DNA of 64,000 bases from Flexibacter flexilis DSM 6793 (GTDB taxonomy: Bacteria; Bacteroidota; Bacteroidia; Cytophagales; Flexibacteraceae): positions 124,001 through 188,000 of the forward strand of contig NZ_FOLE01000006.1 of NCBI RefSeq assembly GCF_900112255.1. The letters run 5' to 3'. Under the pieces are notes generated by a model. It had not been told where the DNA came from and made no database searches. It saw only the letters and a list, made by a program, of their open reading frames with translations. Shown here in pieces: positions 31,845 through 50,719 of the stretch (positions are counted from its first letter, which is position 1; each line of letters opens with the position of its first letter). The translations under genes were made by a program, and so were the position numbers.

Positions 31845-31911
31845 CTCCTCCCCTCTGGGGTGGGGTCAGGGGTGGGGTTTTGTTGGGGTGGGTTTTCATT
31901 TACCCCAACAA
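31845..31911. repeat. Dispersed C/G-rich element with a second hairpin
   Basis: CTCCTCCCCTCTGGGG then TGGGGTCAGGGGTGGGG (31845-31878), then a separate hairpin with arms TTTGTTGGGGT and ACCCCAACAAA (31879-31911). The CTCCCCT-GGGG core recurs at 35049-35064 and 35129-35145 and, altered, in every unit of the 63-nt array, which suggests one dispersed family of intergenic repeats. Confidence 0.6.
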
Positions 31912-33348: not shown

Positions 33349-33566
33349 AAGTGAACAATAGTGGTGAAAGTTTTTTCAAAAATACACACTCACCATTTAT
33401 TAACCTAAACAATTGCACCACCATTGCTTGCCCACAGGCTTTGCCCTTATTCCCATTACCTTCGGGGCGGTTGTCTTTGTCGGTAGATGCGCATGGCTAT
33501 GCATATCATTTATTCTAATTCCACATAGATACGCACAATCGTGCGTATCTCTTATTTCCCCCGCGA
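33349..33566. other. Non-repetitive leader of the array interval
   Basis: The first 218 bases of a 1.87 kb gene-free interval. A short ORF from 33413 has no coding character. No promoter or RNA gene was recognised. Confidence 0.5.
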
Positions 33567-34658
33567 CTTCTATTAAAGTCTTCCCCTTGGGGAAGATTTA
33601 GATGGGGTTTTAATATATCCTCCCTGCAACTTCTGTTAAAGTCTTCTCCTTGGGGAAGATTTAGATGGGGTTTTAATATATCCTCCCTGCAACTTCTGTT
33701 AAAGTCTTCTCCTTGGGGAAGATTTAGATGGGGTTTTAATATATCCTCCCTGCAACTTCTGTTAAAGTCTTCTCCTTGGGGAAGATTTAGATGGGGTTTT
33801 AATATATCCTCCCTGCAACTTCTGTTAAAGTCTTCTCCTTGGGGAAGATTTAGATGGGGTTTTAATATATCCTCCCTGCAACTTCTGTTAAAGTCTTCCC
33901 CTTGGGGACGATTTAGATGGGGTTTTAATATATCCTCTCCGCAACTTCTGTTAAAGTCTTCTCCTTGGGGAAGATTTAGATGGGGTTTTAATATATCCTC
34001 TCCGCAACTTCTGTTAAAGTCTTCTCCTTGGGGAAGATTTAGATGGGGTTTTAATATATCCTCTCCGCAACTTCTGTTAAAGTCTTCTCCTTGGGGAAGA
34101 TTTAGATGGGGTTTTAATATATCCTCTCCGCAACTTCTGTTAAAGTCTTCTCCTTGGGGAATATTTAGATGGGGTTTTAATATATCCTCTCCGCAATTTC
34201 TGTTAAAGTCTTCCCCTTGGGGAATATTTAGATGGGGTTTTAATATATCCTCCCCGCGACTTCTGTTATCCTCTCCGCAACTTCTATTAAAGTCCTCCCC
34301 TTGGGGACGATTTAGATGGGGTTTTAATATATCCTCTCCGCGACTTCTATTAAAGTCTTCCCCTTGGGGACGATTTAGATGGGGTTTTAATATAGCCTCT
34401 CCGCGACTTCTATTAAAGTCTTCCCCTTGGGGAATATTTAGATGGGGTTTTAATATATCCTCTCCGCAACTTCTATTAAAGTCTTCCCCTTGGGGAATAT
34501 TTAGATGGGGTTTTAATATATCCTCCCCGCAACTTCTATTAAAGTCTTCCCCTTGGGGACGATTTAGATGGGGTTTTAATATATCCTCTCCGCAATTTCT
34601 GTTAAAGTCTTCCCCTTGGGGAATATTTAGATGGGGTTTTAATATATCCTCCCCGCGA
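33567..34658. repeat. Minisatellite: 17 units of 63 nt, with one 21-nt unit
   Basis: Units begin CTTCTG/ATTAAAGTC and contain the palindrome-like core CTTCCCCTTGGGGAAG followed by ATTTAGATGGGGTTTTAAT and ATATCCTC. Eleven units run 33567-34259, one shortened 21-nt unit is at 34260-34280, and six more units run 34281-34658. Neighbouring units share variants (first TCCTCCCTGCAA, later TCCTCTCCGCAA; GGGGAAGA, GGGGACGA or GGGAATAT), the signature of local tandem duplication. The unit length is a multiple of three and the plus frame starting CTT stays open, as does one minus-strand frame. Confidence 0.97.
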
Positions 34659-35036
34659 CTTCTGTTATTGCTTCGTGGACTTCTGTTATTGCTTTGTGGA
34701 TTCCTGTTATTGCTTCGTGGACTTCTGTTATTGCTTTGTGGACTTCTGTTATTGCTTTGTGGACTTCTGTTATTGCTTTGTGGATTCCTGTTATTGCTTT
34801 GTGGATTCCTGTTATTGCTTCGTGGACTTCTGTTATTGCTTCGTGGACTTCTGTTATTGCTTTGTGGACTTCTGTTATTGCTTTGTGGACTTCTGTTATT
34901 GCTTTGTGGATTCCTGTTATTGCTTTGTGAACTTCTGTTATTGCTTTGTGGATTCCTGTTATTGCTTTGTGGATTCCTGTTATTGCTTTGTGGACTTCTG
35001 TTATCCTCCCCGCGGCTTCTGTTATCCTCTCCGCAA
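34659..35036. repeat. Second-stage minisatellite: 18 units of 21 nt
   Basis: Sixteen units of the type CTTCTGTTATTGCTTTGTGGA (variants TTCCTG and CGTGGA) run 34659-34994, followed by two units ending TCCTCCCCGCGG and TCCTCTCCGCAA (34995-35036). The first eight bases repeat the start of the 63-nt unit, and 21 is one third of 63, so the short array looks like a collapsed derivative of the longer one. Frame is conserved across the junction. Confidence 0.97.
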
Positions 35037-35180
35037 CTTCTGTTAAAGTCCTCCCCTTGGGGAGGATTTAGGAGGGGTTTGAATATTTCTCTTCCATGGT
35101 CTGTGTCTCACAGACCAACTTTCTCCCCCTCACCTCTGGGGGTGGTGTTTGAACACAACTGCGTATATTTCTGAATTTCT
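35037..35180. repeat. Degenerate terminal copy and dispersed founder-like elements
   Basis: One last unit CTTCTGTTAAAGTCCTCC joined to a perfect CCTCCCC/GGGGAGG palindrome (35051-35065) and ATTTAGGAGGGG, then a separate CCCCTCACCTCTGGGGG (35127-35144). The intact palindrome here looks closer to the dispersed family at 31845 than the array units do, so it may represent the ancestral form. The plus frame of the array ends at TGA 35172-35174. Confidence 0.7.
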
Positions 35181-49393: not shown

Positions 49394-50719
49394 ATGAAGA
49401 AAAAAGGAGTAAATAATAGTTATTGGGGAAGTATTTTGGAAGGTCTTGGCACGTCTTGGCAAGGGCTCAAACTTTCGTTTCGACACTTGCGCGAAGCCAA
49501 AGAATCGCGCGAACCAATCGGCATAGAAAATCCTGCTTATTTTCAGCAAAAAACGGGCATTGTTACGCTACAATATCCTTTCCAACAAATTCCAGTTCCA
49601 GACAATGGCCGCTATCAGTTGCACAACGAAATGGACGATTGCATTGTTTGCGACAAATGCGTAAAAATTTGCCCCGTCAATTGCATTGAAATAGAGCCAA
49701 TTAAGGCCGTGAGCGAAATCGGAAAAACGTCTGATGGCACAACCAAACGCCTTTACGCCGCGCGTTTTGATATAGACATGGCCAAATGTTGTTTTTGTGG
49801 TTTGTGTACGGTGGTTTGCCCGACCGAATGCCTGACCATGACCCCGAATTACGATGTAAGCGTGTTCGACCTCAAACAACTTAATCTTCCGTTTGCCACA
49901 CTCACGCCCGACGAAGCCACTCAAAAGCGCGAAGAATACGACATTTTTCAGGCACAAAAAGCAGCCGCCAAAACTGCTGCTGCTCCTTCTAACACAGCAG
50001 CAAATACATCAGCCGAAACGCCTGCCGCTCCCGCAGATAAAAAACCGTTTAGGCCTGTTATTAAGAAAAAAACAGAACCAACACCCGAAGCCGTAACTCC
50101 TCCTACGGAAATCGTAAGCAATACGCCAACAGAAACAACATCTGAGCCAGCCGCGAAAAAACCATTCAAGCCAATAATTAAGCGCAAAACGGAAGAAACC
50201 GAGCCAGCCGCGAAAAAACCATTCAAGCCAATAATTAAGCGCAAAACGGAAGAAACCGAGCCAGCCAAAGCAGCAGAAAATATTTCGGAGGAAATAAAAA
50301 CGGTAGCTGAAACGCCAGCTCCTGAATCAACGCCCGAAACTGCTCCACCTGCTGCCAAAAAGCCGTTTAAGCCGATTATGCGCCGCAAAACGGAAGAAAC
50401 CGAGCCAGCCAAAGCAGCAGAAAATATTTCGGAGGAAATAAAAACGGTAGCTGAAACGCCAGCTCCTGAATCAACGCCCGAAACTGCTCCACCTGCTGCC
50501 AAAAAGCCGTTTAAGCCGATTATGCGCCGCAAAACGGAAGAAACCGAGCCAGCCAAAGCAGCAGAAAACATTTCGGAGGAAATAAAAACGGTAGCTGAAA
50601 CGCCAGCTCCTGAATCAACGCCCGAAACTGCTCCGCCAGCTGCCAAAAAACCATTTAAGCCGATTATGCGCAGACCAAGGCCAGATGATAATTCAGGTGA
50701 AAATCAAGTAAATGAATAA
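49394..50719 (+). CDS. nuoI: NADH-quinone oxidoreductase subunit I with long repetitive C-terminal tail
   Basis: A 441-residue protein. Residues 1 to about 195 are a normal NuoI with two 4Fe-4S clusters: C83-x2-C86-x2-C89-x3-C93-P and C132-x2-C135-x2-C138-x3-C142-P (CIVCDKCVKICP and CCFCGLCTVVCP). The remaining 250 residues are disordered and repetitive, with six copies of a KKPFKPI/KKPFRPV cationic motif, separated by Glu/Thr/Pro-rich spacers; three 48-residue units are nearly identical in DNA (144 nt). Usual NuoI is about 160-230 residues. No other nuo gene is near, so it is detached from the complex I operon. ATG 49394 is chosen; codons upstream are poorly protein-like. Confidence 0.9.
   Translation: MKKKGVNNSYWGSILEGLGTSWQGLKLSFRHLREAKESREPIGIENPAYFQQKTGIVTLQYPFQQIPVPDNGRYQLHNEMDDCIVCDKCVKICPVNCIEIEPIKAVSEIGKTSDGTTKRLYAARFDIDMAKCCFCGLCTVVCPTECLTMTPNYDVSVFDLKQLNLPFATLTPDEATQKREEYDIFQAQKAAAKTAAAPSNTAANTSAETPAAPADKKPFRPVIKKKTEPTPEAVTPPTEIVSNTPTETTSEPAAKKPFKPIIKRKTEETEPAAKKPFKPIIKRKTEETEPAKAAENISEEIKTVAETPAPESTPETAPPAAKKPFKPIMRRKTEETEPAKAAENISEEIKTVAETPAPESTPETAPPAAKKPFKPIMRRKTEETEPAKAAENISEEIKTVAETPAPESTPETAPPAAKKPFKPIMRRPRPDDNSGENQVNE
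50258..50689 (+). repeat. Three 144-nt direct repeats inside nuoI
   Basis: Copies start at 50258, 50402 and 50546, each encoding EPAKAAENISEEIKTV followed by AETPAPESTPETAPPAAKK and PFKPIMRR. The first two differ by almost nothing; the third diverges at its end. Near identity suggests recent duplication or gene conversion. Confidence 0.95.

Follow-up and report, generated by a model that had tools for sequence, protein, structure and literature searches.

The long tandem array between two genes of Flexibacter flexilis DSM 6793 raises the question of what kind of sequence it is and how it came to be there. It occupies positions 33567–35036 of the 64,000-nt stretch of genomic DNA that was analyzed (hereafter the window). 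We read it as a non-coding mosaic in which a dispersed palindromic element of REP-like kind was amplified in tandem, the element being one of a wide class of C-rich palindromes that flank DUF559 genes, and we put the probability of this reading at roughly 60%.

The array is intergenic and lies between the divergent 5′ ends of a gene encoding an alpha-amylase family protein (PF00128; 31969–33348, reverse strand) and a gene encoding a PBP_like_2 substrate-binding protein (PF12849; 35220–36200, forward strand). On the forward strand, TRF and a unit-by-unit layout resolved eleven 63-nt units (33567–34259), in each of which a 21-nt linker is split by a 42-nt palindromic module, here called P, of subtype B. 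The layout further gave a single 21-nt unit without P (34260–34280), six more 63-nt units (34281–34658), and 18 units of 21 nt. The latter comprise sixteen of type CTTCTGTTATTGCTTTGTGGA (34659–34994), a type that BLAST also located near the DUF559 gene on contig C4, and two of type CTTCTGTTATCCTCYCCGC (34995–35036); the last two, of subtype TATCCTCYCCGC, differ from the preceding 16, which are of subtype TATTGCTTYGTGG. A terminal P copy of subtype A follows (35037–35099, forward strand), with an inverted repeat, a 21-nt mirror repeat, and the core AGTCCTCCCCTTGGGGAGGATTTAGGAGGGG at 35047–35077. The other end is adjoined by a perfect, terminator-like palindrome, AGATACGCACAATCGTGCGTATCT (33527–33550, forward strand), which is unrelated to the array.

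This layout agrees base for base with the preliminary description, which had proposed 17 units of 63 nt, a single internal unit of 21 nt, and 18 units of 21 nt in one register, with a common start of both unit types ([CT]T[TC]CTRTTA) and without indels outside multiples of 21. For the 63-nt as well as the 21-nt array, TRF likewise reported 0% indels; a 126-nt row with 4% indels spans the odd 21-mer. Intact CCTCCCC-TTGGGGAGG palindromes had been placed in both flanks. The right one is present, inside the core at 35047–35077, whereas the left one is unit 1 itself, in the variant form CTTCCCC-TTGGGGAAG. The stretch at 31845, which had been likened to the core, is C-rich but missing among the core matches with up to three mismatches. 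The copy number in the window was taken from a draft assembly and collapsed copies may exist, since contig C7 starts inside a P/21-mer array (L014, 1–200); such arrays may break assembly. Elsewhere in the window (50144–50671), tandem repeats of 57 and 144 nt were found with 98–100% matches.

The linker is split after about its ninth base, between [CT]T[TC]CTRTTA and TCC. P itself comprises a core of roughly 30 nt, i.e. the inverted repeat CCTCCCC-TT-GGGGAGG followed by ATTTAGGAGGGG, and an AT-rich tail; by eye, it also contains a mirror repeat of 21 bases, TGGGGAGGATTTAGGAGGGGT, identical when read in either direction. Two subtypes of P were distinguished, GGAGG..GGAGGGG and GGAAG..GATGGGG. 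The 63-nt units of the window are of the latter subtype or decayed from it, and the terminal copy is of the former. Among 73 cores (22 variants), one stem pair was CG in 37, TA in 23, and neither in the other 13, which indicates that pairing in the stem survived changes at both positions. Across the genome, all 115 linkers measured 21 nt, while P units measured 63 nt in 38 cases and 64 nt in three. Minimum spanning trees connected 48 distinct 21-mers by about 66 substitutions without any indel, and 29 distinct 63-mers by 104 substitutions. The 21-nt unit had initially been taken for a collapsed product of the window array. This view was not supported: the same type of 21-mer is present at other loci, and the family of 48 alternates with P at many of them. 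This makes the 21-mer an older module, spread across the genome. Its join with P reads TA/TA, compatible with insertion of P into the 21-mer or its deletion from it.

Within the array, 63-nt units 2–5 are mutually identical, as are units 7–9. The unit at 34197 also recurs unchanged 399 nt away, at 34596, a pattern that favors unequal exchange within the array. Such recent homogenization, in blocks of four and three neighbors and in a distant pair, accompanies the tandem amplification that had been suggested.

Could the array be translated? One forward and one reverse frame are stop-free through all 17 units, and all unit lengths are multiples of three, which would suit a repeat of 7 and 21 residues. 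However, the open forward frame of the 63-nt unit lacks ATG, GTG, and TTG, its 10 variable columns are spread 3/3/4 over the codon positions without third-position bias, and single-base insertions (+1 units) occur elsewhere in the family. The coding selection considered earlier was rejected on these three grounds, and translation is hardly conceivable. Fold z-scores gave no convincing sign of a structured RNA (−0.4 and −0.3 for the unit, −1.8 and −0.9 for the terminal copy), and the best score against Rfam RNA families was 20.6 bits, compared with a gathering score of 50. The array contains 17 sigma-70-like promoter matches. As these are a single site repeated in the units, and as Bacteroidota promoters use a different consensus, they were given no weight. 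A terminator scan found none inside the array and one on each flank.

The core palindrome had been proposed to be dispersed, and the genome-wide search confirmed many copies. BLAST returned 53 matches of the array in its own genome, far above chance; the P core was found at 43 places with up to three mismatches (reversed control, 0), and another core pattern at 58 places under the same limit. In the 18 stretches fetched and the window, P and linker form 21 mosaic clusters totaling 7.9 kb. Open frames overlapping them are at most 218 aa long, except for two large ones that the clusters reach only at an end. Taken together, BLAST matches, core places, and intergenic clusters support tandem amplification of a dispersed intergenic element. 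The modules combine in steps of 63, 84, 105, 126, and 147 nt; a strict multiple of 21 fails elsewhere in the family, where spacings of 85, 125, and 211 nt accompany the three 64-nt units. Modularity, dispersal, intergenic position, and register are thus direct observations.

Other amplified forms of the P element were noted as well: an 84-nt array of 4.5 copies with 98% matches and a P-like core (L016, 7101–7478) and a 22-nt array of half cores (L016, 2945–3048). Further dispersed palindromes of this genome, similar to GTGGTTTGTGTCCTCACAAACCAC, GATACGCAC..GTGCGTATC, or TACGGACGGCAGTCCGTA, often adjoin P arrays (L010, L011, L015, L016, L017, L019, and L020). Outside the genome, the exact P core is rare. 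Among 39 genomes of the same family, relatives gave single weak matches only and no array (4 of 39 genomes match, including the own genome), and no array was found in plasmids. Among 395 genomes of the phylum, the P core (up to three mismatches) was found 58 times in the own genome, five times in one other (G299), and not in the remaining 393. As a phylum-wide marker, the exact P core therefore failed.

The 21-bp unit also corresponds to two helical turns, and the array might phase a putative protein-binding site in a divergent promoter region. A nearly indel-free register and the position between two divergent genes would fit such a regulatory or architectural role, but P clusters occur equally in divergent, convergent, and tandem gene settings, the register is broken elsewhere by +1 units and deviating spacings, no array was found in relatives from the same family, and recombination between units would keep the register equally well; we consider this role very unlikely. 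Another possibility is that an old, immobile repeat underwent plain replication slippage and unequal crossover, that ordinary recombination dispersed it, and that the DUF559 neighborhood described below is coincidental in this genome. Copy number can change without an enzyme, and the identical neighboring units and the identical pair 399 nt apart are consistent with such a history. It is nevertheless rather unlikely in view of about 20 clusters that have common modules at unrelated intergenic sites, and of a DUF559 link that recurs in many genomes and other phyla.

The preferred reading, amplification of a palindromic element associated with DUF559, draws on a locus on contig C4. Here, an open frame flanked by P doublets (L010; L039 among the DUF559 loci) encodes a DUF559 protein (PF04480, E = 2.5e-38, Pfam). 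It is the only DUF559 gene of the genome. P cores of matching orientation lie on both sides of it, together with a 44-nt direct repeat, and it is adjoined by an array of the window-type 21-mer (ten exact copies and one with 2 mismatches; C4:168128–168358), to which the window array is 91% identical over 295 bp (BLAST). This link to the single DUF559 gene is observed directly, and the chance that a random gene lies less than 300 nt from a P cluster is about 0.005. DUF559 genes encode Vsr-like nucleases of the PD-(D/E)XK type. The protein is similar to an endonuclease-like protein of solved structure (3hrl, E = 3e-23). The accessible part of PMC12907096, in which the string 'palindrom' does not occur, calls a DUF559-containing protein of Caulobacter Vsr-like and places it in the PD-(D/E)XK superfamily.

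We also analyzed flanks of DUF559 genes across Bacteroidota. The loci are the best-scoring matches, mostly one per genome; of 58 fetched, 49 had full flanks and 9 were dropped for short ones. Palindromes with arms of at least 8 within 250 nt were present on the left of 37, on the right of 33, and on either side of 40 of the 49 loci, compared with 28 of 392 control windows. For CCCC-type palindromes, either side was positive at 34 of 49 loci (23/27 in the order, but only 11/22 in the phylum-wide part of the sample, where the signal is weaker), compared with 13 of 392 controls. The arrangement of the proposed element, with a C-rich palindrome on both sides of the gene, is present at the own locus, and both sides were positive at 30 of 49 loci in the arm-8 test and at 21 of 49 in the CCCC test. 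The signature CCTAAATCC/GGATTTAGG occurred 25 times in 39.2 kb beside DUF559 (11 of 49 loci), versus twice in 98.4 kb farther out; even without the own locus, the enrichment is about 24-fold. Palindromes beside many DUF559 genes and a common CCTAAATCC signature are therefore plain findings.

The association also holds at the level of genomes. A DUF559 match was found in 91 of 194 genomes of the order, 76 of which counted as having DUF559 (E below 1e-12); the same cut retained 99 of 139 genomes with a RAYT match. Without tree weighting, at least ten C-rich palindromes were found in 37 of 76 genomes with DUF559 versus 10 of 118 without (p = 3e-10), but in 25 of 99 genomes with RAYT versus 22 of 95 without (p = 0.74). 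One family (f12) contributed 16 of the 37 positives; upon its removal, the comparison became 21/60 versus 10/118 (p = 3e-5). Outside the phylum, a C-rich palindrome lies beside DUF559 in 7 of 8 named records (including cyanobacterial, Deinococcus, and Sphingomonas records); the exception is an Azospirillum locus, which has no C-rich palindrome. Both sides are occupied in 6 of 8, counting one record in which one side was scored by the arm-8 test. Plasmid-borne DUF559 genes of cyanobacteria, Deinococcus, and Sphingomonas are flanked by C-rich palindromes too (L134, L136, L138–L141).

Several observations count against a tight one-to-one link. The exact core is rare, and the genomes are related to one another. 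At least ten palindromes are present in ten genomes that lack full-length DUF559 (three of them with short DUF559-like matches), and, conversely, 15 genomes with DUF559 have two or fewer. G299, the other genome with the P core, gave no DUF559 match, and no DUF559 is present in the 8 kb around the Mucilaginibacter loci that contain an exact 30-mer of P.

Short palindromic repeats are plentiful in many bacterial genomes, and for REP elements their known partner gene is a RAYT transposase. P might accordingly be a REP/REPIN family mobilized by the RAYT (Y1) transposases of its own genome, with DUF559 as a passenger. P is REP-like in size, palindrome, and intergenic dispersal, and three RAYT matches, one of them broken, are found in the genome (C5:269491, C10:129204, and C13:38239). 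As for an inverted doublet, the moving unit of REPINs, P had an inverted partner at L010, L011, L016, L023, and L024, although none in the window array, and these inverted doublets carry AACCCCACCC-CTCCCCAGTGGGGAGG. Tandem clusters of REPINs are also known (PMC3116915, accessible part). On the other hand, the RAYT genes are far from every listed P place and are not flanked by P copies, P lacks GTAG or CGTC by eye, and, as described, the presence of RAYT does not predict palindromes. One own RAYT gene is flanked by a palindrome of its own, GCCCACGGTTTAAACCGTGGGC, unrelated to P (L040, 1409–1430 and 1940–1973). CCCC-type palindromes were found on either side of only 4 of 30 RAYT loci (control 1/240), against the 34 of 49 for DUF559, and any palindrome beside 16 of 30 (control 28/240); this set excludes 2 of 32 loci with short flanks and the broken own match. 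RAYT flanks are thus rich in palindromes yet poor in the CCCC type, so RAYTs have palindromes of other kinds. RAYT was rejected as partner of the C-rich palindromes on grounds of position, its unrelated palindrome, and missing co-occurrence by genome, and mobilization of P by RAYT is improbable.

Returning to DUF559 as the partner, we found the gene together with its palindromes in frame within genes of relatives, namely those for LeuRS (two sites), IleRS, MetH, the amidotransferase end of PurL, and an N-formylglutamate amidohydrolase-like protein (L053, L054, L058, L060, L064, L066, L070, and others in Bacteroidota). Classification covered 46 of the 58 loci, leaving out 12; in 27 of those classified, DUF559 lies in an open frame of more than 230 aa, with identities from Pfam for seven loci and by eye for the others. 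At these insertions, translation of the palindromes yields peptides such as PLSSGEGLGVR. Three states were seen among 11 loci that cover one LeuRS site: DUF559 (167–198 aa) in eight, a short palindrome peptide (37–38 aa) in two, and an empty site (18 aa) in one. As the loci were picked for having DUF559 somewhere, the proportions carry no meaning; what counts is that one site occurs in three states.

In the simplest reading, P is the short offspring of a palindrome-DUF559-palindrome element, and P copies together with the 21-nt linker grew into arrays by unequal exchange. The flanked gene would represent the full element and P its short derivative. Its nuclease may cut at or near palindromes; repair of the break would copy the element to new places and could also drive unequal exchange between neighboring copies, yielding arrays in steps of 21-nt modules. 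The nuclease is proposed as the driver because of the analogy with RAYT and REPINs, by which P would be mobilized by DUF559. Possibly, the palindromes are instead targets for insertion of DUF559 genes rather than parts of one element, and DUF559 leaves the 21-nt linker without explanation. More tentatively, at somewhat less than even odds, DUF559 and C-rich palindromes constitute a bacteria-wide mobile family parallel to RAYT/REP, with full elements, non-autonomous short palindromes, in-frame entry into essential genes, and offspring that in some genomes grew to dispersed minisatellites. In the order studied, C-rich palindromes track DUF559 and not RAYT. A large class of orphan repeats thereby gains an enzyme that is named, small, and testable, and the link offers an origin for non-coding minisatellites. 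If true, such a family would assign a function to a widespread domain still labeled as being of 'unknown function' and would account for the odd in-frame insertions in LeuRS, IleRS, MetH, and PurL.

Several known systems resemble parts of this picture. Rickettsia palindromic elements are in-frame insertions in protein genes. The DUF559 elements of relatives share this property; the P clusters of the own genome differ in being intergenic, and the insertions in relatives include a nuclease gene. CRISPR arrays consist of identical repeats and unique spacers, whereas the units of the window array are contiguous, without unique spacers. Porphyromonas gingivalis belongs to the same phylum as Flexibacter. 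Its BrickBuilt, as described in the accessible part of PMC4596501, is likewise a dispersed minisatellite, placed within an element that has small inverted-repeat ends; unlike the window array, it has a 23-nt unit without a palindromic module and its own leader and tail, and this part of the paper makes no link to DUF559. Our arrays have modules of 21, 42, and 63 nt and, by eye, do not share a leader or tail. Non-coding tandem families at many sites are also described for Leptospira interrogans and Methanocella, as dispersed satellites called rare in prokaryotes (PMC6749651, accessible part), but in other organisms, with other repeat lengths, and with no nuclease link in that text. REP, BIME, and REPIN sequences with RAYT are a further related system: in the accessible parts of PMC3116915, PMC3733652, and PMC6006769 they are short palindromes in high copy number, intergenic, forming doublets and tandem clusters, with repeats flanking one gene (REP sequences are treated in PMC12306157, accessible part, too). 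P resembles them in these respects, with inverted doublets at some loci and a short palindromic core present in many dispersed intergenic copies, yet it has neither the GTAG/CGTC tag nor a flanking RAYT gene, its linked gene being the DUF559 nuclease. In the open-access literature (subscription papers were outside the scope), no publication on DUF559 with flanking palindromes was found, a result that does not establish novelty. BrickBuilt already exemplifies a minisatellite within a dispersed element, and tandem clusters of REPINs are known too; the surprising part is the link to DUF559.
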